64,000 nucleotides of DNA, taken from contig JAJYLQ010000013.1 in assembly GCA_021787595.1 (NCBI GenBank), forward strand, positions 1-64,000. Reading direction: 5' to 3'. This DNA is from Chloroflexota bacterium (lineage in GTDB: Bacteria; Chloroflexota; Anaerolineae; Anaerolineales; Villigracilaceae). A program made the position numbers and the translations under genes. The notes below the pieces were generated by a model. It searched no databases, was not told where the DNA came from, and saw only the letters and a list, made by a program, of their open reading frames with translations. This document shows positions 2,150 to 46,810 of this stretch, piece by piece; the first letter of the stretch is position 1, and each line of letters starts with the position of its first letter.

Positions 2150-2740
2150 ATGTTTATTGATTTTCTCACCCTTGTCATGATAAACCTTGTGGCAGGCACC
2201 GTTCTTCTAGCATACTACTTGTGGAAAGGCATGGATGAAAAAGATCAGCGCCCGTACGCGGCTGCCTTTTTCGTGACCGGGCTGGTAGGTCTGGTTACCG
2301 GCCTCCAACTTTCCTTCACCTGGCCCCTGCCGGGTAGTTTTAACGTTGGCTATGGCGATGCCTCCACTCTCTTCGGCGTTGTCTTCCTTGGCACAGCGAT
2401 TGCCCTGTGGCAAGGCTGGAATTTGACGCCGGTTTCCGTTTATTCCTTCTTCGCAGGCATCGATGCGATCATCGTTGGTCTCCGCCTCTATTCCCTGAAG
2501 CTGGGACAGGAGCCACTCGTTGCCGCCATTGGCTTTATTCTGGCGGGTTTGGGCGGCGTGTGCGCGTTCCCCTTCCTGCAGTGGTTCAGAGACAATAAGA
2601 CCGTGCGCTGGCTTGCGATTGCCGTCCTGCTGGTCACAGCCGCGATCTGGGCCATTACCTTCTATAGCGCGTTGTGGGGCCACATGGCCAGCTTCGCCAA
2701 GTGGGTACCCGCCACAATGGCGACTCCGGCTGCAAAATAA
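2150..2740 (+). CDS. DUF981-family integral membrane protein
   Basis: This 196-residue protein has about six hydrophobic segments and resembles DUF981 proteins in length and in the conserved blocks GLVTGLQLSFTWPLPGSFN and YGDASTLFG. The family has no established function. A strong ribosome site, AAAGGAG, precedes ATG 2150. It is a single-gene unit: a tRNA terminator lies upstream and another terminator just downstream. Confidence 0.75.
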   Translation: MFIDFLTLVMINLVAGTVLLAYYLWKGMDEKDQRPYAAAFFVTGLVGLVTGLQLSFTWPLPGSFNVGYGDASTLFGVVFLGTAIALWQGWNLTPVSVYSFFAGIDAIIVGLRLYSLKLGQEPLVAAIGFILAGLGGVCAFPFLQWFRDNKTVRWLAIAVLLVTAAIWAITFYSALWGHMASFAKWVPATMATPAAK

Positions 2741-2763
2741 TACAGCCCAAATAGTTCAACGAC

Positions 2764-2799
2764 CGGGAAGGGTATGTGACCTTCCCGGTTATCTTTTTT
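2764..2799 (+). terminator. Terminator after the DUF981 gene
   Basis: An inverted repeat CCGGGAAG / CTTCCCGG (2764-2771 with 2781-2788) is followed by a T-rich run at 2792-2798. Confidence 0.88.
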
Positions 2800-2887
2800 A
2801 AAAGTGCGACAACTTGCAAATCATTGGTTGGATCACAACATTTTTGCTATACTACAGAAGATCCAGAACAAATTTGGGAGAGGCGAC

Positions 2888-3256
2888 TTGAATACTGAAC
2901 AAGGAAAATTCTCAACGTTGATTATTGTCCTGATGATCGGCGCAACGCTTGTACTTGTATTGGCGTTATGGTCCGGATTCACATTTATATTCGCTCAAGG
3001 GCGCGAGATCATACTACCGACAATTATCAGCTTAGCCATCGCGATATTGCTTGTGATTGCCTTCGTTGTCGGATCGATCTTTACGCTGCGAAGAAAACTT
3101 TGGGGATACTGGTTATTCGCCGCCACATCGGTGTTGATGTTCATTGGAGGAGGGCTGCCTGGGACCGGCGGTGCAATGAGCCAGCTTGGAGCCGCGGGTT
3201 TTCTGGGCGCCGCCGCCGCGATCCTCGCGTATCGTCAGCGCAATTTGTTGTCGTAA
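2888..3256 (+). CDS. Small multi-pass membrane protein, unknown function
   Basis: The predicted product has 122 residues and about four membrane segments (roughly 10-33, 43-65, 75-92 and 95-115), with basic residues RRK and RQR between or after them. I do not recognise a family. The start is uncertain. TTG 2888 has GGGAGAGG just before it and gives a sensible hydrophilic N-terminus; an upstream in-frame start near 2804 would add 28 residues but has no ribosome site. It lies between the terminator of the DUF981 gene and the promoter of thrS, so it appears to be transcribed alone. Confidence 0.5.
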   Translation: MNTEQGKFSTLIIVLMIGATLVLVLALWSGFTFIFAQGREIILPTIISLAIAILLVIAFVVGSIFTLRRKLWGYWLFAATSVLMFIGGGLPGTGGAMSQLGAAGFLGAAAAILAYRQRNLLS

Positions 3257-19090: not shown

Positions 19091-19936
19091 ATGACTAGAC
19101 AAATAATGCTCTCGACCACCCTTCACGAATTGCGCTCAGCCCGCCTCCTACTGGACGGGACGGTGGGCTTGGTGCCTACGATGGGCTTTCTCCACGCCGG
19201 ACACATTTCCCTCGTCCGACGGGCGCGGGAGGAATGCCAGAATGTTATCGTCAGTATCTTCGTCAACCCGACGCAGTTCGGGCCAAACGAAGATTTGTCC
19301 AAATATCCGCGCGACCTCGACCGGGATTTGCACCTGCTCGAAGAGGCCGGCGCGGACCTGGTCTGGACGCCCACGCCCGAGGTGGTGTACCCGCCCGGAT
19401 TCCAGACGTGGGTCGAAGTCCAGGAAATGACGCGCCCGCTCGAAGGCGCACAGCGGCCCGGCCACTTTCGCGGCGTCACGACCGTCGTGGCGAAGCTGTT
19501 CAACGCCGTCCAGCCGACGAAAGCGTATTTCGGCCAGAAGGACGCGCAGCAGACGGCGGTCATCCAGCGAATGGTCAGGGATTTGAATTTTCCGATTGAG
19601 ATCGTGGTCTGTCCCATCGTGCGCGAACCGGACGGACTCGCCATGTCGAGCCGCAACGTGTATTTGGATACCGAACAGCGCAAGGTTGCGACGGTGCTGT
19701 ATCGCGCCTTGAGCGCGGCAAAAGAGGAATTCGAAAAAGGCGGGCGCGATGCGGAAAAGTTGAGACGAACGATGCAAGAAGTGATCGCGCGGGAGCCGCT
19801 GGCGCAAATGCAATATGTTTCCTGCGCTGACTACGATACGCTGCGGGAATTGGATAAGGTGACCGGCAAGACTTTGCTTTCGATGGCGGTGTTCATCGGC
19901 AAGACACGATTGATTGATAATTTTGTGCTGGAGTGA
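19091..19936 (+). CDS. panC: Pantothenate synthetase
   Basis: It ligates pantoate and beta-alanine with ATP to form pantothenate, the precursor of coenzyme A. The 281 residues are typical. Signatures are VPTMGFLHAGHISLVRRA (the HIGH-like nucleotide motif HAGH), VSIFVNPTQFGPNEDLSKYPR, TTVVAKLFNAVQPTKAYFGQKDAQQ and the KMSKS-like MSSRNVYL. GAGGAAA lies before ATG 19091. No other pantothenate gene is nearby. The stop is followed within 4 bp by repeat elements. Confidence 0.97.
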   Translation: MTRQIMLSTTLHELRSARLLLDGTVGLVPTMGFLHAGHISLVRRAREECQNVIVSIFVNPTQFGPNEDLSKYPRDLDRDLHLLEEAGADLVWTPTPEVVYPPGFQTWVEVQEMTRPLEGAQRPGHFRGVTTVVAKLFNAVQPTKAYFGQKDAQQTAVIQRMVRDLNFPIEIVVCPIVREPDGLAMSSRNVYLDTEQRKVATVLYRALSAAKEEFEKGGRDAEKLRRTMQEVIAREPLAQMQYVSCADYDTLRELDKVTGKTLLSMAVFIGKTRLIDNFVLE

Positions 19937-19939
19937 ATT

Positions 19940-19982
19940 GTAGGGGCGACTGGAGTAGGGGCGACTGGCCAGTCGCCCCTAC
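19940..19982. repeat. GTAGGGGC family repeat, perfect 28-bp palindrome plus half copy
   Basis: GTAGGGGCGACTGG occurs at 19940-19953 and again at 19955-19968, the second directly followed by its complement CCAGTCGCCCCTAC. It lies between panC and the TIR gene. The flank ACATTATGTTTTATAAT resembles flanks of the copies at 54521 and 54952, and its TATAAT may serve as the -10 of the TIR gene. Confidence 0.85.
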
Positions 19983-20013
19983 ATTATGTTTTATAATCCA
20001 TTCATCTTATTTC

Positions 20014-21444
20014 ATGGGGCTTCACGTGCCTGATTCATCGAACCGGCCTTTGCGCGTTTTCCTGTGCCATTCCTCCAACGACAAGCCGCTGGTGCGCGAG
20101 CTGTATCAAAAACTGCGCGCCGAAACCTGGATTCAGCCCTGGCTGGATGAAGAGGAACTTTATCCCGGCCAGGATTGGAATTTGGAAATCGAAAAAGCCG
20201 TCGAAGCATCGGATGCAATCATTGTTTGTCTTTCCAATAATTCTATCACGAAAGAAGGATATGTTCAGCGCGAACTGCGAATCGTGTTGGATTATGCCGA
20301 TTACAAACCGGAAGGCACACTTTATATCATTCCCGTGCGCCTGGAAGAATGTGAGCCGCCGCGCCGTTTGCGCGCTTGGCAATATGCAGATTATTTCCCT
20401 GACACGCAACGCGAACGTGCTTTTGAAAGATTGCTGGTTAGTTTAAAAAGGCGTGCTGATTCGCTCGGCTTGAAAAACGAAGCATTCGTTCTGAATAAAG
20501 TCGAAGAACCTGCTGAAAAACTTGTTGAAGAAAAGAAGCCAGCGACAGAAAAAAGAACAATAAGCATTGGCGGTAACGTTATCAATTCAAATATTATTGC
20601 AGGTGATGGAAATTCTATTGGAAATGTCCAGAAATCCCAACTCATACAAATAAAAGCTTCACAACTAGAGACAAATTCAAACAAGCTTGCTCTCTCCAAT
20701 GGTATGGAATTCATGCGCGTGCCCGCTAGTAAGTTCTTAATGGGAAGCACAAAAGAAAACAAACTGGCTTTTGATGATGAACGCCCTCAATATACAGTGG
20801 ACATTCCTTACGATTACTGGATGGCGCGCTTTCCCGTTACGAACGAGCAATACAACGCCTTTGTAAAGGCCAAAGGATCGAAACATCCTGTCAATGACTG
20901 GGCAAAGAAGAAAGATCATCCTGTTACTTACATCAGATGGGATGATGCCATGTCGCATTGCAGATGGCTGAATGATTTGCTCAAAGGCGACTTGTCTTCC
21001 GGCCTGGTCTTGCGCCTGCCCACCGAAGCGGAATGGGAAAAAGCCGCGCGCGGCTCCCCTCTCCTTTTAGGAGAGGGACAGGGTGAGGTCAATGAATGGC
21101 CGTGGAGAAATAAATTCGATAAGAATAAATGCAATTCAAGCGACGGTGGGAAGGGAACGACCACGCCCGTTGGCTTATATTCGCCGCAAGGCGACTCGCC
21201 CTACCTTTGCGCTGATATGGTTGGTAATGTGTGGGAATGGACGCACAGTTTGTTCAAGCCATATCCATATAAAGCCGATGACGGGCGTGAAGATGAAAAA
21301 ACTTCTGATTTCCGTGTGCTGCGCGGCGGTTCCTTCAGCAGCGATCTCAGGTTCGTCCGCTGTGCTTCCCGCCTCGACAGCCTCCTCTATAACTTCGGCG
21401 GCGGAATCGGTTTTCGTGTGGTGGCGGCTCCGCGATTATCATAA
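20014..21444 (+). CDS. TIR domain fused to a formylglycine-generating-enzyme-like (SUMF1) domain
   Basis: The 476-residue protein starts with a TIR_2 domain (about 11-140: LRVFLCHSSNDKPLVREL, WLDEEELYPGQDWN, IIVCLSNNS). A linker contains SIGGNVINSNIIAGDGNSIG, a repeat-like motif often seen in bacterial signalling fusions. The C-terminal FGE/SUMF1 domain (about 225-475) includes MEFMRVPASKFLMGS, ARFPVTNEQYNAFV, LRLPTEAEWEKAARG, MVGNVWEWT and VLRGGSF. The pocket glutamate expected for TIR NADases could be in the EEEL region. An in-frame CCCTCTCC / GGAGAGGG repeat (21056-21088) replaces part of a loop. The start is ATG 20014, close to a TATAAT. Defence or stress signalling is plausible. Confidence 0.85.
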   Translation: MGLHVPDSSNRPLRVFLCHSSNDKPLVRELYQKLRAETWIQPWLDEEELYPGQDWNLEIEKAVEASDAIIVCLSNNSITKEGYVQRELRIVLDYADYKPEGTLYIIPVRLEECEPPRRLRAWQYADYFPDTQRERAFERLLVSLKRRADSLGLKNEAFVLNKVEEPAEKLVEEKKPATEKRTISIGGNVINSNIIAGDGNSIGNVQKSQLIQIKASQLETNSNKLALSNGMEFMRVPASKFLMGSTKENKLAFDDERPQYTVDIPYDYWMARFPVTNEQYNAFVKAKGSKHPVNDWAKKKDHPVTYIRWDDAMSHCRWLNDLLKGDLSSGLVLRLPTEAEWEKAARGSPLLLGEGQGEVNEWPWRNKFDKNKCNSSDGGKGTTTPVGLYSPQGDSPYLCADMVGNVWEWTHSLFKPYPYKADDGREDEKTSDFRVLRGGSFSSDLRFVRCASRLDSLLYNFGGGIGFRVVAAPRLS

Positions 21445-22876: not shown

Positions 22877-23164
22877 CTAAACCTGTTCGAAGCGCGAGAC
22901 CGGGACAACGAATAACGTGGCGCGCTTCTCGATGGATTCGCCGGATCGTTCGGGACGGCGGCTGGAAGCGGCTGCCGTTTCGCGGACCAACGCCACCGCC
23001 GAATCGACTCTTGCATCGTCAACGCCCATCATCAGGGTTGCCACACCGCTGCGGAGCAATCCGCCCGTCGAGGCGATGCGCGTGACGCGGTATTCGGCGC
23101 TGGTCAACGCGCGGATCAAAGCATCGGCTTCGTTGTCCTTGATAATCACGATGATCATCTTCAT
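22877..23164 (-). CDS. PII-like cyclic-di-AMP receptor family protein, short form
   Basis: This 95-residue protein has the PF06153 (DarA/PstA-type) ferredoxin-like fold pattern: start MKMIIVIIKDNEADALIRAL, ligand-loop motif STGGLLRSGVATLMMGVDD, and end KRATLFVVPVSRFEQV. In DarA/PstA these regions bind cyclic-di-AMP at trimer interfaces. Here the usual GFL and N are LL and V, so affinity may differ. GGAGG precedes ATG 23164. It lies downstream of the long-form paralogue at 23245, in the same order as the pair at 40625-42794, and is most like the short protein at 42525. Confidence 0.8.
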   Translation of the reverse strand: MKMIIVIIKDNEADALIRALTSAEYRVTRIASTGGLLRSGVATLMMGVDDARVDSAVALVRETAAASSRRPERSGESIEKRATLFVVPVSRFEQV

Positions 23165-23181
23165 GGCGAACCTCCGTGCGT

Positions 23182-23242
23182 GTGGGGGCACAGCGTGATC
23201 TCAAGCCAGCCAAGCCGCGTCGAAAATCTGCTGTGCCCCTAC
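23182..23242. repeat. GTGGGGGCACAGC...GCTGTGCCCCTAC inverted repeat
   Basis: Terminal arms of 13 bp (23182-23194 and 23230-23242) face each other across 35 bp. This is a copy of the GTAGGGGC family, placed between two PII-like genes. Confidence 0.8.
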
Positions 23243-23244
23243 GC

Positions 23245-23577
23245 TTATATTTCTTCATATCTTTCCACCGGCAGGCAAAACACCGTCGCGCCGCCGACCG
23301 TCACCGGGACCGGCGTGGGCATGGGCAGCGGCGAACCTTCCAACGGCATCGTCAAATATTCCACGCGCTGGCGGCAGGATGCACGCAGGGCGGCCAGCGC
23401 CTCTTCTTCGTGCTCATCGGGCAGGCCGATCAACAGCGTGGCATTGCCGCGTCCGAGAAATCCGCCGGTGCTTGCCAGGTAGACGATGGGCGCGCCCAAA
23501 GGTTCCAAAGCACGCGTTGCCGCGTCCACGTCCTGGTCGTGTACCACGGCCAGCATCAATAGATGGATGGTTTTCAT
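23245..23577 (-). CDS. PII-like cyclic-di-AMP receptor family protein, long form
   Basis: The 110-residue protein has the same PF06153 pattern: MKTIHLLMLAVVHDQDVDAA, the full ligand motif STGGFLGRGNATLLIGLPDE, and the end ATVFCLPVERYEEI. It carries an insertion (MPLEGSPLPMPTPVPVTVGG) before the last strand. That insertion and the VERYEEI end match the domain fused to the antiporter at 40625, so the two are closer to each other than to their neighbours. ATG 23577 has GGAGAAG upstream. It is probably co-transcribed with the short form downstream. Confidence 0.82.
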   Translation of the reverse strand: MKTIHLLMLAVVHDQDVDAATRALEPLGAPIVYLASTGGFLGRGNATLLIGLPDEHEEEALAALRASCRQRVEYLTMPLEGSPLPMPTPVPVTVGGATVFCLPVERYEEI

Positions 23578-23621
23578 GATCCGCTTCTCCATCGCCACAT
23601 CTTTCTTTTAGGATACCACGA

Positions 23622-26018
23622 TTAATCGGCGGATACCACCAGCGGCGCGTGATCGGTGATCGTAACGGTTTTGCCATTCGGGAATGACACATCGGTTCGA
23701 TCGTGGCCGCGCACGATCTTCATTCCTTTGTGTTGAATCGTCACAGTCCACGCAAACGGGTTTTTGCCCTCGAGCCGGACGCGCGTCGGCGAGTAGATCG
23801 TCACGCCGAGGGTTTGCAAAAACAATCCAACTGGTGCGAGGCCGATCAATGCGCCGCGTTCGCCGATGCCGCTCCCGGTATCGGCATGATAGCGCGCATA
23901 AAACGTCTTGTTCTGTTTCAGGCTCCCGATGATCGCGTTCATCAAATGCGCAACCAGGCGCGCGGCCTCGTTTCGGAATCCATAGGCCAGCAGCCCCTCG
24001 CCGATCAAATGGTTCCAGTGGAGATAAACGCTGTTCGCAACGGTATCCGCAGAGAACGGCGGACTTTCCGCTTCACGGTCCGGGACGAACGGGATGGCTG
24101 GCACGCCGAACGGACGGTCGAAACGATCCGCGTCGAGGAAGGAACGTCCAATCAAAACCTGCGCGCGCTGTTCGTCCGGGATGTGCGCCCAAAGCGGGGT
24201 AAACAGCGTGATGTCCTCGATGGTCGCGTCCACCCTGCGAAGGATGAATTTATCCCTGTCTTCCAAACCTTTGACGCTGACGCTCCCGATCTTCGAAAAA
24301 ACTTTTTCGCTGGTCGCGACCAAGCCGCCGCTGCGCCATTGGAATTGTTCGATGATTTCGGACTCACCTTTTGCTTTTTGGCTGAGCATCTCACTGATTT
24401 CGACCACGGGCCGCGCCGCTGCGGGATTTTTGGATTGAATCTCGATCAACAAGCGCGCCGGCGTCTCGGACACAAAATGCGGGCGCATGTTGCCGGGGCC
24501 TTTGTGTCTGGCAATGACCTTGCCGCTCGAAGTTTGTTTCGTGGCGCGATCGCGATACGCATATAACGCGGAGCGCGGGTCCCAGCTTGTTTCGACGGAG
24601 GCGCGCAATGCGGCGGCTTGCGCCTGTAAAAGATTCGCATCGTCGTTTCGATTGAGGATACCCGCCATCGAGATCAACGCATTCGCTTCGCGGTAAAGCA
24701 TGGCCTCCAGCTGCGGGTTATGCAGCGCGGAAATCTTCACGCCCTGCGACCACGGATGCCATGTGTCGAAAAGCGGATGATCCTCGAAGCCGGTTTGCAA
24801 AACATGATCCCAGGCTGGGATGCCATCGCGGTCGGGATCGTGATCGGGCGAAAACCAGCTCCAGAAAAATGCCAGCAGTTTGGGAAATGTTTCTTTTACG
24901 AATTCTTCATCCCGTGTGTACTGATAATAATTCCACGCGAGGCTGGCGATCAGCGGCTCGGCCAGGAATTTAGCGCGCTGCCCGCCAAGGCCAGGACGCC
25001 CGTCAACGGAACCGGATTCGGTTTGAACACTCAGAAAGTTTTCAATGAGTCCGCGGAGGAGATTGGGCGCGGCGGGAAGCAGGCTGGCAAGGTAATACGA
25101 ATCGAGCGGCGTTTGTCCGCTCCACGCCGGCGGATAATCATGGCCGTCGCCGCGATGCGAATTGCCGCCGTCCGGCTGGCGCGACTGGACAAAGGAGGAA
25201 CAAGGCAAATGATCGGAATTTGAATAGAACAGACTCAGCGCGGCCTTTTGACTGAATGCCAGCGCGGCATCCCAATCTGCATCGCCGGTCTGGATATCGA
25301 GCGTATCGCCTGCGTCCAGCAATTCGATGCGCGTGCGCTCCGCGTCCCACGGGCGCGCCGCGATGTGCCGCGCCAATTCGAATGAAGATTCAGCCGTTGC
25401 TTCGGAGGCCAGCGTCCACGTTACCGTGCTCGTGGATCGAGGGTTGAGTTCGAGATCAACAGTCAGGGAGGGATGCGGCCCGGAGCCGGGATTCGGCCCG
25501 CCGGTCATGAATAGAACCGGAGCGAGCCCGCCCGTTCCTCCGGCGAGAACGTTGACCATCTGCTGCTGCGCGGGCGCAAAGGATTGTCCATCCAGCGGAG
25601 TCAACGCGCCGCACAATTCAACATTGAGCCTGCGCGCAAAGTCTGTGCGATTGGCAACGACCAGCCGCCCGGCCAACGCATGTGATTCGGGAACCCAATA
25701 TTCGGCGGAAACATCCAGATCATCAAAGGGAGAAAAGGTCAGCAACAATAAATTGGGATAAAAGCGGCGAAGCAATAATGGCGAATGAAATTCAGTTGGA
25801 TTCGTGACTGTCTTGCCCATCTCGCCAAATCTATAAAAGAGACGCATGTTGCGGGCACGCAATCCGTATGTGGTTCGGATGGCAAGTGCGACCGGTTCCC
25901 CTGTGCCGAATTCGAATTCCCAGATATGATCGTTGACGTAATCCGTTTTACAAAGGCGGGCATCCGCTGCAATCGTCAGCGAAAGCGGATCGCCTGCCTT
26001 GAGTGACCAATCGCGCAT
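23622..26018 (-). CDS. Alpha/alpha-barrel glycosidase-like protein
   Basis: The 798-residue protein has an N-terminal beta-sandwich part (about 1-270; YRFGEMGKTVTNPTEFHSP, PNLLLLTFSPFDDLDV) and a toroid of helical hairpins (about 285-740; DSYYLASLLPAA, PLIASLAWNYYQYTRDEEF, DHDPDRDGIPAWDHVLQ, NSVYLHWNHLIGEGLLAYGF), ending in a small beta domain. This layout is that of GH63/amylo-alpha-glucosidase-like enzymes, and DPDRDGIPAW is typical of the acid-bearing loop. No signal peptide is visible, so it is probably cytoplasmic, acting on an alpha-glucoside or mannosyl-glycerate-type substrate. The exact family is uncertain. Confidence 0.65.
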   Translation of the reverse strand: MRDWSLKAGDPLSLTIAADARLCKTDYVNDHIWEFEFGTGEPVALAIRTTYGLRARNMRLFYRFGEMGKTVTNPTEFHSPLLLRRFYPNLLLLTFSPFDDLDVSAEYWVPESHALAGRLVVANRTDFARRLNVELCGALTPLDGQSFAPAQQQMVNVLAGGTGGLAPVLFMTGGPNPGSGPHPSLTVDLELNPRSTSTVTWTLASEATAESSFELARHIAARPWDAERTRIELLDAGDTLDIQTGDADWDAALAFSQKAALSLFYSNSDHLPCSSFVQSRQPDGGNSHRGDGHDYPPAWSGQTPLDSYYLASLLPAAPNLLRGLIENFLSVQTESGSVDGRPGLGGQRAKFLAEPLIASLAWNYYQYTRDEEFVKETFPKLLAFFWSWFSPDHDPDRDGIPAWDHVLQTGFEDHPLFDTWHPWSQGVKISALHNPQLEAMLYREANALISMAGILNRNDDANLLQAQAAALRASVETSWDPRSALYAYRDRATKQTSSGKVIARHKGPGNMRPHFVSETPARLLIEIQSKNPAAARPVVEISEMLSQKAKGESEIIEQFQWRSGGLVATSEKVFSKIGSVSVKGLEDRDKFILRRVDATIEDITLFTPLWAHIPDEQRAQVLIGRSFLDADRFDRPFGVPAIPFVPDREAESPPFSADTVANSVYLHWNHLIGEGLLAYGFRNEAARLVAHLMNAIIGSLKQNKTFYARYHADTGSGIGERGALIGLAPVGLFLQTLGVTIYSPTRVRLEGKNPFAWTVTIQHKGMKIVRGHDRTDVSFPNGKTVTITDHAPLVVSAD

Positions 26019-35387: not shown

Positions 35388-39635
<4,248 letters not shown>

Positions 39636-39646
39636 CAAAAATTCCC

Positions 39647-39682
39647 GTAGAGGCAGGTTTCAAACCTGCCTCTACATTTTTT
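39647..39682 (+). terminator. GTAGAGGC palindrome, rpoC terminator
   Basis: GTAGAGGCAGGTTT and AAACCTGCCTCTAC form a perfect 14-bp stem around a single C, followed by six T. It is a short member of the GTAGGGGC-type repeats and works as a terminator. The next gene starts right at its end. Confidence 0.88.
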
Positions 39683-40498
39683 ATGATCCGCTCCCGATTC
39701 ATTTCGAAGAAACCGGAAGGACAGCCGACGCGCGGCAAGACCGCTTCGAATCGACTCCGCCGCGTCGACAATTTCATCCTGCTCTATGAGCCATCGCTTC
39801 TCGCGCGAACCGACGGCGGGTCCAGCGATTCTTTATTCGTTGACCTCGGCTACGGCTTTGATCCGCGTACCACGCTCGAATCCGCCGCTCGTTTTCGACG
39901 CGTGAATCCAAATCTAAAAATCTTGGGCGTCGAAATTGATCAAGAACGAGTGGATGCCGCGCTGCCTTATGCAGACGATAAAACATTTTTCCGTTTGGGC
40001 GGATTCAATTTGCCATTGAAAGACAATGAAACAGTCAGGCTTATTAGAGCCTTCAATGTTTTGCGCCAATACGAAGAAAAAGATTTCGCCCCGGCTTACG
40101 GGCGATTAGCTCAATATGTTCTGCCCGGCGGGTTGATGATCGAAGGCACATCGAATCCGTTTGGGAGCATTTGGGCGGCAAACCTGGCAAGAAAGATGGA
40201 TGATGGATCATGGAAAACGGAAGCGCTGATCTTCAGCACAAATTTTCGCCTGGGTTTTGAAGTGGAGGAATTTCAAACCATCCTGCCGAAGAATCTTATC
40301 CATCACGTGACGCCCGGCGAAAAAATTTATGACTTCTTCGAAGCATGGAAACGCGCCGCGGCAGAAACGGCATCGGCCAAAGCGTATGGGACGCGTCAGT
40401 GGTTTGGCGCGGCCGCCCAAATCCTCGCAGGGCGAGGGTATCGAATCAATTTGCAAAAGAAATGGTTATCCAAGGGTTGGCTAATCTGGGAACGATGA
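39683..40498 (+). CDS. SAM-dependent methyltransferase-like protein
   Basis: The 271-residue protein has a Rossmann methyltransferase pattern: motif I DSLFVDLGYGFDPRTTLES, acidic end of strand 2 LGVEIDQERV, the segment FNVLRQYEEKDF at motif IV, and VLPGGLMIEGTSNPFG. The N-terminus is basic (SRFISKKPEGQPTRGKTASN). Its substrate is unknown. Start ATG 39683 directly follows the rpoC terminator and has no good ribosome site. Residues RKMDDGSWK are encoded by an ATGGATGATGGATCATGG word repeat (about 40195-40213) of the kind found in spacers, read here in frame. Confidence 0.72.
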   Translation: MIRSRFISKKPEGQPTRGKTASNRLRRVDNFILLYEPSLLARTDGGSSDSLFVDLGYGFDPRTTLESAARFRRVNPNLKILGVEIDQERVDAALPYADDKTFFRLGGFNLPLKDNETVRLIRAFNVLRQYEEKDFAPAYGRLAQYVLPGGLMIEGTSNPFGSIWAANLARKMDDGSWKTEALIFSTNFRLGFEVEEFQTILPKNLIHHVTPGEKIYDFFEAWKRAAAETASAKAYGTRQWFGAAAQILAGRGYRINLQKKWLSKGWLIWER

Positions 40499-40624: not shown

Positions 40625-42523
40625 ATGACCGGCGAAAACATCATTGTCGTTGAACGATTCATCATCCTCTCACTGCTGATCGCCTCAGTGGTGGCAGTTG
40701 CCGCGCGCCGACTGCGATTGCCATACACGGTGGGGCTGGTTTTGATCGGCCTCGCCGTGACGTTGCTTTCCCCCCTTCAAATTCAAATTTCGCCGCAAAT
40801 CATTTTAGCTTTGCTCGTTCCTCCGTTGGTATTCGAAGCCGCATTTCATATCCGCATTGACGATCTGCGCCGCGACTTCTGGCTCATCCTTTTGCTGGCC
40901 GTGCCAGGCGTGATACTGACCACATTGCTCGTTGGCTGGCTGGTGGCGGAGGGAACCGGACTCGCTATTCAAATCACGCTGGTCTTCGGCGCGCTCGTTT
41001 CCGCAACGGACCCGGTCGCAGTCGTGGCTTTGTTCCGGCGTTTGGGTGTACCAAGGCGATTGCAGGTTTTGCTCGAAGGCGAAAGCCTGTTCAACGATGG
41101 GACCGCCATCGTGATGTTCAGCCTGATGGTTTCCATCGCATCCGCCGGCACATTCAGTTGGACAAGTGGCATCGCTCAATTCATCACCATCGCAGGCGGC
41201 GGCCTGATTGCCGGCATTCTTTTGGGGATGCTCATCTCGCAGTTTATCAGCCGCATTGATGATCCATTGGTCGAGACAACCCTGACCGTTGTGCTGGCTT
41301 TCGGTTCCTATCTCATTGCCGAGTCACTCGGCGTCAGCGGCGTGCTGGCGGTGGTCGCGGCGGGCATTGTCAACGGGAATGCCGGGCCGCGCGGCATGTC
41401 CCCGACCACGCGCGTGGTGGTCTTCAATTTTTGGGAAACCGCCGCGTTCCTTGCCAATTCGTTCATCTTTTTGCTGATCGGATTAACGATCAACCTTCAA
41501 ACACTGTTTGCAAACTGGCAGGCGATTGGCTGGGCAATCCTTGCTGTTCTGCTTGCGCGCGCGGCCAGCATTTATGGCTTTTCGATTTTTGGCCGCGAGA
41601 TTCCATCCAACTGGAAGCATGTTTTGTATTGGGGAGGCCTACGCGGCGCGATTGCCCTTGCACTGGCCCTGAGTCTGCCGGAGACGGGCGATCTATTGGC
41701 GTCCGCGCGCGAGCCGCTTCAGGCCATGACGTTTGGCGTTGTGCTGTTCACATTGCTGGTGCAGGGCTTTACAACGGACTGGCTCACGAAGCGGCTCAAG
41801 ATTGTCCAGCGTTCGCATTATCAGGAGGAGTACGAACGCCGCCACGCGCGTTCCGTTGCCTGGCGGGCCGCACATGATTATTTGCGACGATTGAATCAGC
41901 AGGGACTCCTTTCCGAACATACCTGGCAGAAACTTTCGCCGCTCATGGAACGACAAAATGGCGTGCTCGTGGAAGCGGTCAAGGAAATCATCACTTCTGA
42001 TCCGACTGTCGAAGCGGAGGAGTTGGACACCGCGCGGCGCGAAGCGTTACGCGCACAGCGCTCGGCATTGATGGGGCTTCTGCGCGACAACGTCATCTCG
42101 GAGGAAACATATTCGCAGCTCGTCGGGGAAGTGGACGCGGCGCTCACCGAAGAAAGCTTGTCGTGGCCCGATCTTTTGCGAAGCAGCACCGCGCCTTCCT
42201 TGCATATCTCGAAATTGATGGTCGCTGTTGTTCAAAAGCAGGATAATGAAAACGCGACGAACGTTCTGACGAATTTGGGTTTCCCGTTGGATCATCTGCC
42301 AAGTTCCGGCGGATTCCTGAATCATCATAACATCACGCTGTTGATCGGGCTTCCAGCCGGGCGCGAGGAAATTGTTGTCAATGCATTGCGCCGCGCCTGC
42401 CGCGGACGCGTGGATTTCGCCCCCGCGAATTTGTCCGCGGATCTTCCGATTGCACCCAAAGAAGTGACCGTGTCGAAAGCCACCATTTTCATGTTCGACG
42501 TCGAAGCGTACGAGGAATTCTGA
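40625..42523 (+). CDS. CPA1-type Na+/H+ antiporter fused to a cyclic-di-AMP receptor domain
   Basis: The 632-residue protein has about 12 membrane helices (residues 10-385) of the NhaP/CPA1 kind, with ion-site ALVSATDPVAVVALFRRLG, EGESLFNDGTAIVMF, ESLGVSGVLAVVAAGI and the arginine-bearing GGLRGAIALALALSLP. A long cytoplasmic helical linker follows (about 390-525; AAHDYLRRLNQQGLLS, EAVKEIITSD). The last 105 residues (about 528-632) are a PF06153 PII-like domain: ISKLMVAVVQKQDNENATNVL, SSGGFLNHHNITLLIGLP and ATIFMFDVEAYEEF. The fusion suggests that cyclic-di-AMP, a regulator of K+ and osmolyte transport, gates the exchanger. Start ATG 40625. A free short paralogue follows by 1 bp. Confidence 0.9.
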   Translation: MTGENIIVVERFIILSLLIASVVAVAARRLRLPYTVGLVLIGLAVTLLSPLQIQISPQIILALLVPPLVFEAAFHIRIDDLRRDFWLILLLAVPGVILTTLLVGWLVAEGTGLAIQITLVFGALVSATDPVAVVALFRRLGVPRRLQVLLEGESLFNDGTAIVMFSLMVSIASAGTFSWTSGIAQFITIAGGGLIAGILLGMLISQFISRIDDPLVETTLTVVLAFGSYLIAESLGVSGVLAVVAAGIVNGNAGPRGMSPTTRVVVFNFWETAAFLANSFIFLLIGLTINLQTLFANWQAIGWAILAVLLARAASIYGFSIFGREIPSNWKHVLYWGGLRGAIALALALSLPETGDLLASAREPLQAMTFGVVLFTLLVQGFTTDWLTKRLKIVQRSHYQEEYERRHARSVAWRAAHDYLRRLNQQGLLSEHTWQKLSPLMERQNGVLVEAVKEIITSDPTVEAEELDTARREALRAQRSALMGLLRDNVISEETYSQLVGEVDAALTEESLSWPDLLRSSTAPSLHISKLMVAVVQKQDNENATNVLTNLGFPLDHLPSSGGFLNHHNITLLIGLPAGREEIVVNALRRACRGRVDFAPANLSADLPIAPKEVTVSKATIFMFDVEAYEEF

Positions 42524-42524
42524 A

Positions 42525-42794
42525 ATGATGAAAATGATCATTGCCATTCTGCATAACACGGACGGTGAATCCACGCTCCAGGCTTTGACGCAGGCCGGCT
42601 TCCGCGTCACGCGCGTGGCCGCCAGCGGAGGCTTTCTGCGCCGCGGCAATGCCACCTTGTTGATCGGCACGGATGAAGAACAAGTTCCCGGTGCCATACA
42701 GATTCTGCGCGAGCACAGCGCACCCGCCATAGACCCCGGACAAAAACGCGCCACAGTTTTTGTGTTGAAGGTGGATCGGTTTGAACAGATCTAG
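42525..42794 (+). CDS. PII-like cyclic-di-AMP receptor family protein, short form
   Basis: The 89-residue protein matches the PF06153 pattern: MMKMIIAILHNTDGESTLQAL, ASGGFLRRGNATLLIGTDEE with the complete GGFL/GN ligand loop, and KRATVFVLKVDRFEQI. It lies one base after the antiporter stop, so it is certainly co-transcribed and may form mixed oligomers with the antiporter's own domain or titrate the ligand. It is most similar to the short form at 22877. GAGGAA at 42511-42516 is the probable ribosome site. Confidence 0.85.
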   Translation: MMKMIIAILHNTDGESTLQALTQAGFRVTRVAASGGFLRRGNATLLIGTDEEQVPGAIQILREHSAPAIDPGQKRATVFVLKVDRFEQI

Positions 42795-42854: not shown

Positions 42855-44255
42855 ATGTCCAATCCTGAATTCGTTGCTTTCCTGCGCGCTTATCCATCCT
42901 ATCCCACCACGCACATCATTGACGATTTGCGCGCCGCCGAATATGCGCGGCTCGACGTGGGCGAGCACATCTATCTCGATTACACCGGCGGCGGGTTGTA
43001 TGCCGAAACGCAGGTGCGCCGCCATCACAAACTGTTGAGCGAACACGTCTTCGGCAATCCGCATTCGTCGAATCCAAGTTCGCAGGCATCCACGCAATTG
43101 GTCGAACATGCGCGCAGCTACGTGCTGAAATTTTTCGGCGCCGATCCAAACGAATACGATGTGATCTTCACGGCAAATGCAAGCGGCGCATTGAAACTGG
43201 TTGGCGAGTCGTATCCGTTTGCCAAAGGCGGACATTATCTTTTGACTTTTGATAACCACAATTCAGTGAATGGGATTCGGGAATTCGCGCACGCCCGCGG
43301 CGCGGAGGTGACTTATATCCCGGTCGCGCTGCCGAACATGCGCGTCGACGCATCCTCCCTCGACGATTACTTTGCGCGCGGACAAAAGGGCGCGCATAAT
43401 CTTTTTGCTTTTCCCGCCCAATCGAACTTCTCCGGCGTACAACATCCGCTCGAATGGATCGAGAAGGCGCACGCCGCGGGCTGGGACGTTTTGCTCGACG
43501 CCGCGGCGTTTGCTCCGACAAATTATCTCGACTTGAGTCAGGTTCATCCTGATTTTGTTCCGTTATCGTTTTATAAAATGTTCGGTTATCCAACCGGCAT
43601 CGGCGCGTTGATCGCACGCAGGGAAGCGCTGGCAAAACTTCACCGTCCGTGGTTCGCAGGCGGGACGATCACAGTTGTGTCGGTGCAGGGTGATAAATAT
43701 TATCTGGCTGATGGTCACACCGCGTTCGAAGATGGCACGCCCGATTATTTGAACATTCCCGCGGTCGAGATCGGACTCAAGCATCTCGAGTCGATTGGCT
43801 ACGATGTGATCCACGAGCGCGTGATGTGTCTCGCTGGCTGGCTGTTGGACAATCTGGTTCAAATGAAGCATGGCACGGGTCAGCCGCTGGTGCGTATCTA
43901 CGGGCCGACAAATGTCGAAGCGCGCGGCGGTTCGGTGACTGTCAACTTCTTTGATAAAGATGGCAGGGCGATTGACCATCGCTTCATCGAAAGCGAAGCC
44001 AACAAGGTCAACATCTCACTGCGGACAGGTTGTTTCTGCAATCCCGGCGCAGGTGAAGTCGCGTTGGGTCTTTCGCGCGTCGAATTGGATGTGTGCTTTA
44101 CACGGCCGGATCATGAACAGCGATTGAGTGTTGATGATTTCCGCCTTTGCTTCGACGGCAAGTCCACCGGCGCGGTGAGAATTTCTGTGGGCATGGTGAC
44201 GAATTTCAACGACGTGCAGGCGTTCTTGAGCTTTGCGAGGGGGCTGCTGGGATAA
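42855..44255 (+). CDS. Class V aminotransferase (cysteine desulfurase / MoCo sulfurase-like)
   Basis: A PLP enzyme of 466 residues related to cysteine desulfurases and the N-terminal domain of molybdenum-cofactor sulfurases. Signatures: YLDYTGGGLYAETQVRRHH, FGNPHSSNPSSQAS, FTANASGALKLVGE, the PLP lysine in PLSFYKMFGYPTGIGALI, and a conserved cysteine in ISLRTGCFCNPGAGE that could carry persulfide. The C-terminal part (KSTGAVRISVGMVTNFNDV) is typical of the MOCOS branch. AAGGAG precedes ATG 42855. No partner molybdenum or iron-sulfur gene is nearby, so the acceptor is unknown. Confidence 0.85.
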   Translation: MSNPEFVAFLRAYPSYPTTHIIDDLRAAEYARLDVGEHIYLDYTGGGLYAETQVRRHHKLLSEHVFGNPHSSNPSSQASTQLVEHARSYVLKFFGADPNEYDVIFTANASGALKLVGESYPFAKGGHYLLTFDNHNSVNGIREFAHARGAEVTYIPVALPNMRVDASSLDDYFARGQKGAHNLFAFPAQSNFSGVQHPLEWIEKAHAAGWDVLLDAAAFAPTNYLDLSQVHPDFVPLSFYKMFGYPTGIGALIARREALAKLHRPWFAGGTITVVSVQGDKYYLADGHTAFEDGTPDYLNIPAVEIGLKHLESIGYDVIHERVMCLAGWLLDNLVQMKHGTGQPLVRIYGPTNVEARGGSVTVNFFDKDGRAIDHRFIESEANKVNISLRTGCFCNPGAGEVALGLSRVELDVCFTRPDHEQRLSVDDFRLCFDGKSTGAVRISVGMVTNFNDVQAFLSFARGLLG

Positions 44256-44286
44256 TCTTTCATGGGATAATTGGGAGAGTAAATTC

Positions 44287-45252
44287 ATGCATCTATTTGA
44301 AAAAGCACTGTGCGTTTGTGTTGAAGACATCGAGCTTGAACTTCAGAGTCTTTCTTCTATTGAATGGCTGAACTTTTTATTAAACCCTCGTCGTTTACGA
44401 GGAAGTGATTTTCTCATGCGCTGGTCGCAAGGCGCATGGAGCGAGGAACGTATCACACAGGCAGTCAACCAAACCAAAGAATTTTTTGCAATCCCTTATG
44501 GTCCAAGTGGTACTGCGCCAGACGATGATGTTCGAGCATTTGAACTTTATTTTGAGAGGCTTGAGGCGGCAGGATTAGGAAAAATCAAACGGCCAGATTT
44601 ATTGGTCTTTAGGAAACACGACGAAGAAGATGTTTCAAGGTTGGTTGAAAAACTTGGTGGGCTGGGGGAATTGCCATTTACGTCAGAAGACAGCAAAGAT
44701 ATCCAAGACCTTTTATCCAAAGCTATCGTCGCAATTGAGTGTGAAAATAGCCTTTGGATGGGAAGACTTATGCCGGATTATGAAGCCGAGTTGAAGCCAC
44801 AAAAGCGTTTGGGAGGCAAGATGGGACTGAAGAAAAATGCAGTTCTTCCAACAATCATTGTGAAAGAGGAAGACCGAAGGCCTTTGCAGACATGGCAGAA
44901 ATCAAATAATATTCCCATTCATGTATGGCATGTCTTCTACGACATGGCCTTCGGAATCGCTTTTGATGAAGTACAACGATTGATTAGGCAGAAATATATT
45001 CTCCCAACTGAGCAGACCTTTCAAGCTCCAAGCGGGGCAACGACAAAGAAATCTCTTTACAAGATCTATTATCATTATGGCTATCCTCTCGGAAATGCCA
45101 TTGAACAGCCAAAACTCTCTGCTAAACACATTGTTGATAAGAACGGACACATTCTTCCCTATGTTCACTTTGAAAGTGGTAAGATGGAAATCACTAACGA
45201 AGCTTTGAAGGTCTTACAAGAACTGGCAAATGCAAAAGATCAATCATTATAA
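44287..45252 (+). CDS. Type II restriction endonuclease, AccI-like
   Basis: The 321-residue protein looks like the AccI restriction endonuclease family: PRRLRGSDFLMRWSQGAWSEERI, a nuclease core KRPDLLVFRK ... AIVAIECENSLWMGRLMPDY (acidic residues of a PD-(D/E)xK-type site), RLGGKMGLKKNAVLPTIIVK, and VWHVFYDMAFGIAFDE. AccI itself cuts GTMKAC, but the specificity here cannot be read from sequence. Codon use is AT-rich compared with the neighbours, and the gene overlaps its methyltransferase partner by 23 bp; both point to a transferred restriction-modification cassette. Start ATG 44287, with GGGAGAG upstream. Confidence 0.72.
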   Translation: MHLFEKALCVCVEDIELELQSLSSIEWLNFLLNPRRLRGSDFLMRWSQGAWSEERITQAVNQTKEFFAIPYGPSGTAPDDDVRAFELYFERLEAAGLGKIKRPDLLVFRKHDEEDVSRLVEKLGGLGELPFTSEDSKDIQDLLSKAIVAIECENSLWMGRLMPDYEAELKPQKRLGGKMGLKKNAVLPTIIVKEEDRRPLQTWQKSNNIPIHVWHVFYDMAFGIAFDEVQRLIRQKYILPTEQTFQAPSGATTKKSLYKIYYHYGYPLGNAIEQPKLSAKHIVDKNGHILPYVHFESGKMEITNEALKVLQELANAKDQSL

Positions 45253-46810
45253 ACTTCCGTCTTCAGGCCAAGCTAGAGAACTCCTGCGCGAAAAAGGGCA
45301 ATTCTGGACACCTGACTGGGTAGCAGAAGCAATGGTTGAATATGTGCTTGTTGATAACAGCAACAGTTTGTTTGATCCGGCAGTTGGCGCAGGCGCGTTC
45401 TTTCGCGCAGGGAAAACAATAGCAAAGGAAACGGGGCGATATATTTCTCTTTCGGGAATGGAAATAGATTCTTCCGTTTTAGAGCAGGCAATTCGACACA
45501 GCCTGTCAAGAGAAGACATAGCAAATGTTAAGATTGGCGATTTTATCTTTGACCCGCCAAACAAAAAATTTTCCGCAATTGTTGCCAACCCGCCTTATAT
45601 CCGCCACCATCGTATCTCTTTGGAGAAGAAAGAACAACTTAAGCAGTTAAGCGTGAAAGTTACTGGCAAGATTTTGGACGGGCGAGCAGGCTTGCATATT
45701 TACTTTTTAGTTCGCGCACTAGCGCTGTTGGAGGAAAATGGGCGCTTGGCGTTCATCATGTCGGCTGATACCTGTGAGGGAAAATTTTCAAATGATTTAT
45801 GGAATTGGATATCAAAAAATTATGCGCTTGATGCTGTAATTACTTTTGAGCCGGATGCGTCTCCGTTTCCAAATGTAGATACCAATCCAATCATCTTTTT
45901 TCTAAGAAAATCTCTGCCCCAAGAAAAATTTCTTTGGGTGCGCTGCAATGAATCGCAGACAGAACAATTGAAATTGTGGGTGAGATCGGGTTGTCAAGTT
46001 GCACCTCATAAACAAATGACAATTGTGGAGCGCGAGTTAAGTGAGGGATTGGCAACTGGATTATCGCGTCGGCCGTTTGCCAACGTAGCCAGCAAATATG
46101 TTCTGGGCGACTTTGCTCAAGTTATCCGCGGTGTTGCGACAGGGGCAAATGAGTTCTTTTTTCTAACTGAAGAACAAATTAAGCGGATTGGCATACCGGA
46201 CCGTTATTTTGTTAGGGCAATTGGCCGGACGAGAGATGTCCCAGACAAGGAAATTACCAGAGAAACATTGAACTCTCTTGACGCGAAAGGCCGCCCCACG
46301 TTTTTGCTCGCTCTTAACGGCGAACCTTTTGATAAATATCCGGAAAAACTAAGAGAGTATTTGAAAAATGGCGAGAAAATGGGCCTCCCCAAAAGGCCTT
46401 TGATTTCGCAAAGAAAGCCCTGGTATAAAACAGAGTCACGCATTGTGCCGCCATTTTTGTTTGCCTATTTGGGGCGACGCAATTCCAGGTTTATTCGCAA
46501 TATGGCGGGTATAATTCCGCTTACGGGCTTCTTATGTGTTTATCCAAAAAGTCATGAGAAAGAATTCATTGAGCGGCTTTGGAAAATCCTTGACCACCCC
46601 GGCACAGTTTCCAATCTTGCGATGATTGGTAAGTCTTATGGCGATGGCGCGGTAAAAGTAGAGCCGCGGTCGTTGGAAAAATTACCTATTCCTGATAACG
46701 TCATTGAACAAATAAAAATGCCTGTTCAGATGAGGTTATTTGAAAAAGATAAAACTTATAAAGCAGTAACCTACCCTGTAAGAAAACGAACTAAAACGGT
46801 GGCCCGATAA
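45230..46810 (+). CDS. Adenine-specific DNA methyltransferase of the R-M system
   Basis: The 526-residue N6-adenine methyltransferase has the AdoMet motif I in SLFDPAVGAGAFFRAG, the catalytic motif IV in FSAIVANPPYIRHHR (NPPY), and motif VIII-like NTNP and FFLRKS segments, followed by a target-recognition half (about 270-510). The order of motifs is I before IV, as in Eco57I/AccI-type methylases. An in-frame overlap with the endonuclease gene couples their translation. AT-rich codon use indicates acquisition together with the nuclease. It should protect host DNA at the same site the nuclease cuts. Confidence 0.88.
   Translation: MQKINHYKLPSSGQARELLREKGQFWTPDWVAEAMVEYVLVDNSNSLFDPAVGAGAFFRAGKTIAKETGRYISLSGMEIDSSVLEQAIRHSLSREDIANVKIGDFIFDPPNKKFSAIVANPPYIRHHRISLEKKEQLKQLSVKVTGKILDGRAGLHIYFLVRALALLEENGRLAFIMSADTCEGKFSNDLWNWISKNYALDAVITFEPDASPFPNVDTNPIIFFLRKSLPQEKFLWVRCNESQTEQLKLWVRSGCQVAPHKQMTIVERELSEGLATGLSRRPFANVASKYVLGDFAQVIRGVATGANEFFFLTEEQIKRIGIPDRYFVRAIGRTRDVPDKEITRETLNSLDAKGRPTFLLALNGEPFDKYPEKLREYLKNGEKMGLPKRPLISQRKPWYKTESRIVPPFLFAYLGRRNSRFIRNMAGIIPLTGFLCVYPKSHEKEFIERLWKILDHPGTVSNLAMIGKSYGDGAVKVEPRSLEKLPIPDNVIEQIKMPVQMRLFEKDKTYKAVTYPVRKRTKTVAR

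Follow-up and report, generated by a model that had tools for sequence, protein, structure and literature searches.

The 64,000-nucleotide stretch of a Chloroflexota genome analysed here (contig JAJYLQ010000013.1, positions 1 to 64,000; hereafter the window) encodes a CPA1-type Na+/H+ antiporter that carries a PF06153 domain at its C terminus (40625..42523, + strand, 632 amino acids) and is followed, one base later, by a gene for a separate PF06153 protein. We call the fused domain and its relatives type A, and the paralogous group to which the separate protein belongs type B. Residues of the two types suggest that a predicted site for cyclic di-AMP (c-di-AMP) is divided between them: A has lost one half of the site, which B retains, and we put at even odds a proposal in which A and B form a mixed trimer at the antiporter dimer and together build the c-di-AMP site. 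We regard the divided site as a strong hypothesis, for which the residue pattern is firm at the window locus and softer for the clade. The fusion itself is genuine, widespread and lineage-restricted, and is a variant of known families.

The open reading frame (ORF) of the fusion starts with an ATG at 40625 and ends with a TGA at 42521-42523. Its transmembrane exchanger part (residues 18-389; 40676..41791, + strand) matches PF00999 at 249 bits, and the protein passes TIGR00831 a_cpa1, the NCBIfam equivalog for bacterial CPA1 Na+/H+ antiporters, with 319.2 bits against a cut-off of 279.6. A cytosolic helical linker, delimited by linker-only matches and by the helices of a structural model, spans approximately residues 391-525 (41795..42199, + strand) and leads to the fused type A domain (42212..42520, + strand), which PF06153 covers over residues 530-631 with 50.9 bits, or 55.9 bits for the isolated domain (gathering cut-off 27). 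In 45 aligned fusions, Asn157-Asp158 and the TDP stretch (Asp129, Pro130) do not vary. The original prediction, made from the nucleotide sequence, of a CPA1-type antiporter with a helical linker and a C-terminal PII-like domain that matches PF06153 is borne out by PF00999, TIGR00831 and PF06153; that the window ORF encodes such an antiporter with a fused PF06153 domain is confirmed, and exchange activity is predicted. No RCK, RCK_C or USP domain was found in the fusion protein, which matches solely PF00999 and PF06153 at E values up to 1, in agreement with the proposal of a control route unlike those that use RCK or USP domains.

An AlphaFold2 model of the full fusion, built with 44 relatives, has a mean predicted local distance difference test score (pLDDT) of 82.4; the PF06153 domain in this model shows its strands in the expected order, with pLDDT values of 49-84 across ten-residue blocks. 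The exchanger fold is recovered by VIA-align against PaNhaP (4cz9; Z-score 45.8, root mean square deviation (rmsd) 2.4 over 384 residues), and the matches comprise SOS1, SLC9C1, NHE (including NHE1) and NhaP exchangers. The alignment with SLC9C1 (8xq4; Z-score 48.4, rmsd 3.9 over 458 residues) extends over model residues 5-511, the linker aligning with the cytosolic helices of SLC9C1 and SOS1 up to about residue 510; these alignments hardly cover the PF06153 part.

The free type B protein (42525..42794, + strand, 89 amino acids) starts at 42525 or 42528, the ATG at 42525 lying one base past the stop of the fusion as originally described, and matches PF06153 at 75 bits (cut-off 27). Its AlphaFold2 model (pLDDT 88.5; 62 in the T'-loop block) is PII-like, with PstA and DarA structures, with and without c-di-AMP, as best Foldseek matches (E 4e-8), and by sequence the closest solved relatives of both the A and the B domain are the DarA/PstA c-di-AMP receptors. 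Neither domain reaches the 140-bit cut-off of the NCBIfam DarA equivalog NF058593 (CycDAmpRcpDarA), the isolated fused domain scoring 60.4 bits and B 77.1 bits. The B protein had been taken for a free copy of the fused domain; a tree and alignments instead identify it as a diverged paralogue in which the B'-loop is absent, the median domain length being 88 residues in B against 104 in A and 109 in rows from the wider class.

In the PstA complex, c-di-AMP is reported to lie at each subunit interface, between two unlike halves of a site (PMC4316997). Half 1, from one subunit, consists of Arg26, Thr28, Gly47 (through its backbone) and Gln108, and half 2, from the next subunit, of Phe36, Leu37, Asn41 and Phe99. 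In the same report, the dissociation constant (Kd) was not determinable for the T28A and GGFL-AAAA mutants and was 9.6 micromolar for N41A, compared with 0.37 for the wild type, and binding in lysates was normal for PstA lacking residues 71-87 of the B'-loop. With PstA numbering transferred via a DarA alignment, the window's fused A domain keeps half 2 in full (Phe36, Leu37, Asn41, Phe99) and has lost half 1, with Pro26, Asp28 and Glu108 in place of Arg26, Thr28 and Gln108; it does not carry the full DarA/PstA contact set. The ligand loop that the original prediction had recognized, the T'-loop SSGGFLNHHNITLLIG, is present and conserved, but three other contacts are lost, so that the loss of ligand-contacting residues, named earlier as a ground for giving up the receptor assignment, is partly borne out: a PF06153 domain does sit on a CPA1 exchanger, and this domain is not an intact DarA-type receptor. 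The adjacent B protein has Arg26, Thr28, Phe36, Leu37, Asn41, Gly47, Phe99 and Gln108.

The pattern is sharper in a second, fully free A-B tandem of the window (22877-23598, - strand). Its type A protein (23245..23598, - strand, 117 amino acids) has Pro26, Val28 and Glu108 alongside Phe36, Leu37 and Asn41, and its type B protein (22877..23191, - strand, 104 amino acids) has Arg26, Thr28 and Gln108 alongside Leu36 and Val41. In terms of the predicted c-di-AMP site, half 1 is missing from the A of this pair and half 2 from its B. Among cultured species, Anaerolinea thermolimosa IMO-1 (L215) and Longilinea arvoryzae KOME-1 (L220) also have a free pair. The PF06153 domains of these two tandems are the only four matches in the assembly.

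To place these proteins, a tree of 231 domains was computed with a quick method and branch support from the SH-like approximate likelihood ratio test (SH-aLRT). Type A forms one group of 69 fused and 31 free domains (support 98) and type B another of 102 free domains (support 90), with 29 outgroup rows from the class separate from both (96). Six free rows that carry Gln108 are placed in A by the tree, and two poor, long-branch B rows of locus L052 were retained. The outgroup represents the 30 best-scoring PF06153 matches in the class, of which 29 are distinct (L022 is identical and was omitted), a choice that leans towards canonical sites; Bacillota rows are mostly canonical as well, but were chosen by similarity. 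Before counting, loci that repeat the window (L001-L004 and L036) and places fetched twice (L141, L144 and L146-L155) were dropped, and the half-site counts leave out loci L156-L271.

Half-sites were scored by a strict rule, in which half 1 requires Thr28 together with Gln, Arg, Lys or His at position 108 and half 2 requires an aromatic residue at 36 together with Asn41. Rows with no residue aligned at 108 (7 A, 5 B and 2 class rows) were scored as lacking half 1; the seven A tails concerned have Val or Leu there by eye. So scored, half 1 is present in 7/100 A rows, 96/102 B rows and 27/29 class rows, and half 2 in 80/100, 29/102 and 29/29, respectively. Residue 108 is acidic in 71/100 A rows and in none of the 102 B rows (Fisher p 3e-31, which ignores relatedness); B keeps Thr28 in 100/102 rows and Gln, Arg, Lys or His at 108 in 97/102. 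Among 80 adjacent A-B pairs, 61 have a complete interface of half 2 from A and half 1 from B, and none has a complete interface the other way round. Fused A is complete alone in 0/50 pairs, and B beside free A in 0/30, half 2 being absent from all 30 under either this rule or a lax one in which Thr28 alone counts as half 1. By genome, the fused A is complete alone in none of the 65 that have one, the composite site is complete in 48, and B alone in 29.

The two types also occur together. Among neighbouring domains (at most 400 bases apart, same strand), A is followed by B 80 times, B by B nine times, B by A twice and A by A never. Of 65 genomes with a fused A, 64 also hold a B. In 20 genomes the fetched stretch showed A (19 fused, 1 free) without a B next to it, and 19 of these have a B elsewhere; the sole exception, G432, is a genome that is 62% complete. 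Seven genomes of family f69 have just two PF06153 proteins: a fused A that lacks half 1, and a B, not linked to it, in which Ser41 replaces Asn41. The persistence of B where it is unlinked from A, and the decay of A and B in free pairs on opposite halves, are the strongest points for the divided site. A single PF06153 match per genome is found in 14 of the 187 genomes of the order that have PF06153 and in 74 of the 184 genomes outside the order in a class-wide sample (hand counts). Two of those 14 genomes, G355 and G403, hold both A and B by our own profile (L102 and L096), and PF06153 therefore misses some members.

Two further arrangements bear on the pairing. At locus L245 (Candidatus Aquidulcis; 2483-3211, + strand), a long and then a short PF06153 domain stand in one frame of 243 residues from the first ATG; this is possibly a natural one-chain A-B receptor, and the second domain may also have a start of its own within the frame. 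At five f65 loci (L068, L070, L071, L073 and L081), two distinct free genes of the B clade come after a fused A, and the three products could form a three-part trimer.

A search with linker and domain recovered the fusion in at least 65 of the 251 genomes of the host's order, Anaerolineales, which answers how common PF00999-PF06153 fusions are there. The 69 fused rows fetched come from these 65 genomes, and the number is a lower bound because about nine further possible matches, some cut by contig ends, were left out. The class-wide sample of 298 genomes, searched to an E value of 1e-12, listed matches from outside the order that span either the linker or the domain, and none that spans the two. 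The linker is common to antiporters without a PF06153 domain, and is therefore native to the antiporter family, with the domain added behind it. Three candidates that resembled fusions were rejected: in L248 (Bacillota) the PF06153 domain ends a frame of 702 residues whose upstream part looks by eye like a chance ORF and does not match the antiporter profile, and L221 and L243 likewise have upstream chance frames by eye and leave the profile unmatched. Titles and abstract openings listed in our searches of open-access papers yielded no description of a PF06153-antiporter fusion or of split A/B pairs.

A CdaA-like diadenylate cyclase is encoded on another contig of the genome (PF02457, 134 bits; CdaA_N just under the cut-off, 22.3 against 23.8), and its translation shows DGA and RHR, which we take to be the diadenylate cyclase motifs. 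Absence of such an enzyme, which would have spoken against the original prediction, is thus not the case here, and PF02457 diadenylate cyclases are present in 97 of the 101 genomes of the order searched. The ydaO c-di-AMP riboswitch (RF00379) has no match in the genome.

Several observations weigh against the divided site and the mixed trimer. The window's adjacent B holds every contact by itself, and B is complete alone in 25 of the 50 pairs beside fused A; free A is complete alone in 6 of 30 pairs (six rows). Among the genomes with a fused A, 17 of 65 are without a composite site, and 10 have neither that nor a complete B. The loss of half 1 depends on the weight given to position 108, and Gln108 is not among the mutants of the PstA study (PMC4316997). 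Thr28 is kept in 44/69 fused and 17/31 free A domains, and under the lax rule 33/69 fused and 15/31 free A are complete alone and the reverse interface is complete in 16/80 pairs. The loss of half 1 is certain for the window's fused and free A, because both lack Thr28 as well; for the A clade as a whole the case is weaker. Half 2 is itself absent from 16 of the 69 fused rows (53 keep it), and the GGFL loop is gone in a fused subgroup (L082, L093, L096, L102, L103 and L105). The row counts share ancestry and are therefore not independent. Two or more PF06153 matches also occur in 110 of the 184 genomes outside the order (hand count), which makes pair counts per genome weak evidence for pairing. 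Finally, A and B distances were compared in a partial Mantel test that controlled for transporter and linker distances (r 0.22, p 0.025; 49 of the 50 fused pairs), and a control comparison of linker and B distances, with transporter distances accounted for, gave the higher value (r 0.445); the co-evolution test is thus not specific and was set aside.

The completeness of many B proteins is the basis of the most serious alternative, which we nevertheless consider unlikely: B would be a complete homotrimeric c-di-AMP receptor and the fused A merely its docking platform, much as GlnK binds AmtB. The full contact set of the window's B fits this, as do the B proteins complete alone in half of the pairs beside fused A and in 29 of the 65 genomes, and at L093, L096, L102, L103 and L105 the fused A is without the GGFL loop while the adjacent B keeps Thr28, Asn41 and Gln108. 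Against it stand B beside free A, which is never complete alone, and the B of the seven f69 genomes, unlinked to A and left incomplete by Ser41; moreover, a pure dock would not need half 2, which most fused A domains have kept.

At the other extreme, the fused domain could be a full, homotrimerizing DarA-type c-di-AMP receptor, with B just buffering the signal. Its T'-loop and Asn41 are kept, and by Thr28 alone nearly half of the fused domains would qualify, but we give this reading very little credence: the window's fused domain has Pro26, Asp28 and Glu108, the T28A mutation alone left PstA without a determinable Kd (PMC4316997), and exchangers are dimers rather than trimers, as stated for animal NHEs (PMC11120249). 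Of mixed trimers and buffering by B, both raised in the original prediction, mixed trimers are the better supported. It is improbable, if somewhat less so, that the ligand of the fused domain, whether or not B takes part, is something other than c-di-AMP, such as an adenine nucleotide. The acidic residue 108 and the loss of Thr28 in A would suit such a ligand, and the far-off DarA equivalog cut-off and the unmatched riboswitch agree with it, yet B almost invariably keeps Thr28 and a suitable residue at 108, nearly every genome searched in the order has the cyclase, and among solved structures both domains are closest to c-di-AMP receptors.

A mixed A/B trimer would work as follows. Bacterial CPA1 proteins are dimers. 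One exchanger dimer would supply two A domains, and because it supplies just two, a B would be needed as the third subunit to complete a PII-like trimer. Since A has lost half 1, which B retains, an A-A site would be incomplete and a B-A site complete, Arg26, Thr28 and Gln108 of B together with Phe36, Leu37, Asn41 and Phe99 of A making the full interface site; an A2B trimer would thus have a single c-di-AMP site per exchanger dimer. Once c-di-AMP is bound, loops lying where the helical linker ends would become ordered and exchanger activity would shift, coupling Na+/H+ exchange to c-di-AMP and linking the messenger to salt and pH balance. The fusion, the two paralogues and their joint occurrence, the residue pattern and the cyclase gene are observed, and the mixed trimer with its stoichiometry, ligand binding and the effect on transport are predicted from them. 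The exchanger might be either activated or inhibited; the effects of c-di-AMP on KhtT-KhtU and CpeA-CpeB are likewise reported to differ (PMC10117811). Animal NHEs are homodimers, and their transporter domain is said to resemble that of prokaryotic relatives (PMC11120249). An extended form of the proposal, in which the receptor is an obligate A2B heteromer with one ligand site per exchanger dimer and the unfused A-B pair with its neighbouring glycosidase makes up a c-di-AMP-controlled salt and osmolyte cluster characteristic of the Anaerolineales, is tentative and rather doubtful.

Elements of this arrangement are familiar from other systems. DarA/PstA of Bacillota share the Pfam family of A and B, and we assume the layout of the interfacial site to be alike; they are described as free homotrimers with the whole site on each subunit, whereas here one paralogue lies inside an exchanger, the contacts are split over two paralogues and B is without the B'-loop. 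KhtTU, CpeAB and CpaA are likewise reported as cation/proton antiporters that c-di-AMP controls by way of a cytosolic domain or subunit, but they use RCK_C and not a PII-like fold, and the window fusion is without an RCK domain. SLC9C1 and SOS1 are CPA1-fold exchangers whose first cytosolic helices align with the fusion linker; SLC9C1 is described as having a voltage sensor and a C-terminal CNBD for cAMP, the place of which is taken by a PII-like domain in the fusion. In GlnK-AmtB and SbtB-SbtA, the PII partners are separate proteins. These are PII-fold proteins on transporters (GlnK-AmtB, 2ns1), as proposed here, and papers cited in PMC5448240 report that the paralogues GlnB and GlnK mix in PII trimers, as proposed for A and B; in the window system, by contrast, the transporter polypeptide itself contains one of the subunits, and the predicted ligand contacts are distributed over two proteins.

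The gene immediately upstream of the free A-B pair encodes a glycoside hydrolase of 798 residues (23622..26018, - strand; PF22422, 69.1 bits against a cut-off of 27), which scores 30.8 bits against 625 for the NCBIfam alpha-glucosidase model and matches a trehalase in the PDB at E 2e-4. With relatives sought by phmmer (E up to 1e-10), a hydrolase is found upstream of the free A domain within 150 bases in 18 of 31 loci and farther away in five; none was found in the remaining eight, and for one of these the sequence ahead of A was just 169 bases long. For the antiporter::A gene, 27 of the 69 fused rows have a relative upstream (in two cases the row is the second copy of a tandem fusion), 22 rows with more than 300 bases of room yielded none, and 20 rows had too little sequence. 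Other gene orders combine the same parts: hydrolase, antiporter without the domain, A and B at L098 and L101; hydrolase, antiporter::A, B, A and B at L039 and L041; and antiporter, A and B as separate genes at L099. We read these orders as pointing to a single ancestral cluster in which the fusion originated. The hydrolase may belong to the same c-di-AMP module, and a tie to osmolyte turnover is conjecture based on the names of the families.

Other genes of the window are noted for completeness. An ORF at 39599-40498 (+ strand), between rpoC and the antiporter, has partial relatives next to two other fusions (L038 and L066) and no match in Pfam at E 0.001 or in NCBIfam at E 0.01. A probable type II restriction-modification pair, whose genes overlap by a few bases, occupies 44233-46810 (+ strand) and consists of an AccI-like endonuclease (PF09545) and an Eco57I/N6 DNA methylase (PF07669, PF02384). 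A protein with TIR and formylglycine-generating-enzyme (FGE-sulfatase) domains is encoded at 19933-21444 (+ strand).

CPA1 exchangers include NhaK of Bacillus subtilis. A mutation in this cation/proton antiporter is reported among the suppressors of c-di-AMP loss, and a natural fusion in at least 65 genomes points to CPA1 exchangers as a target class. If the proposed mixed trimer is correct, divided half-sites would represent a new receptor design, in which sensing of the ligand requires both gene products to come together, and the free third subunit would reconcile a transporter that is a dimer with a sensor that is a trimer.

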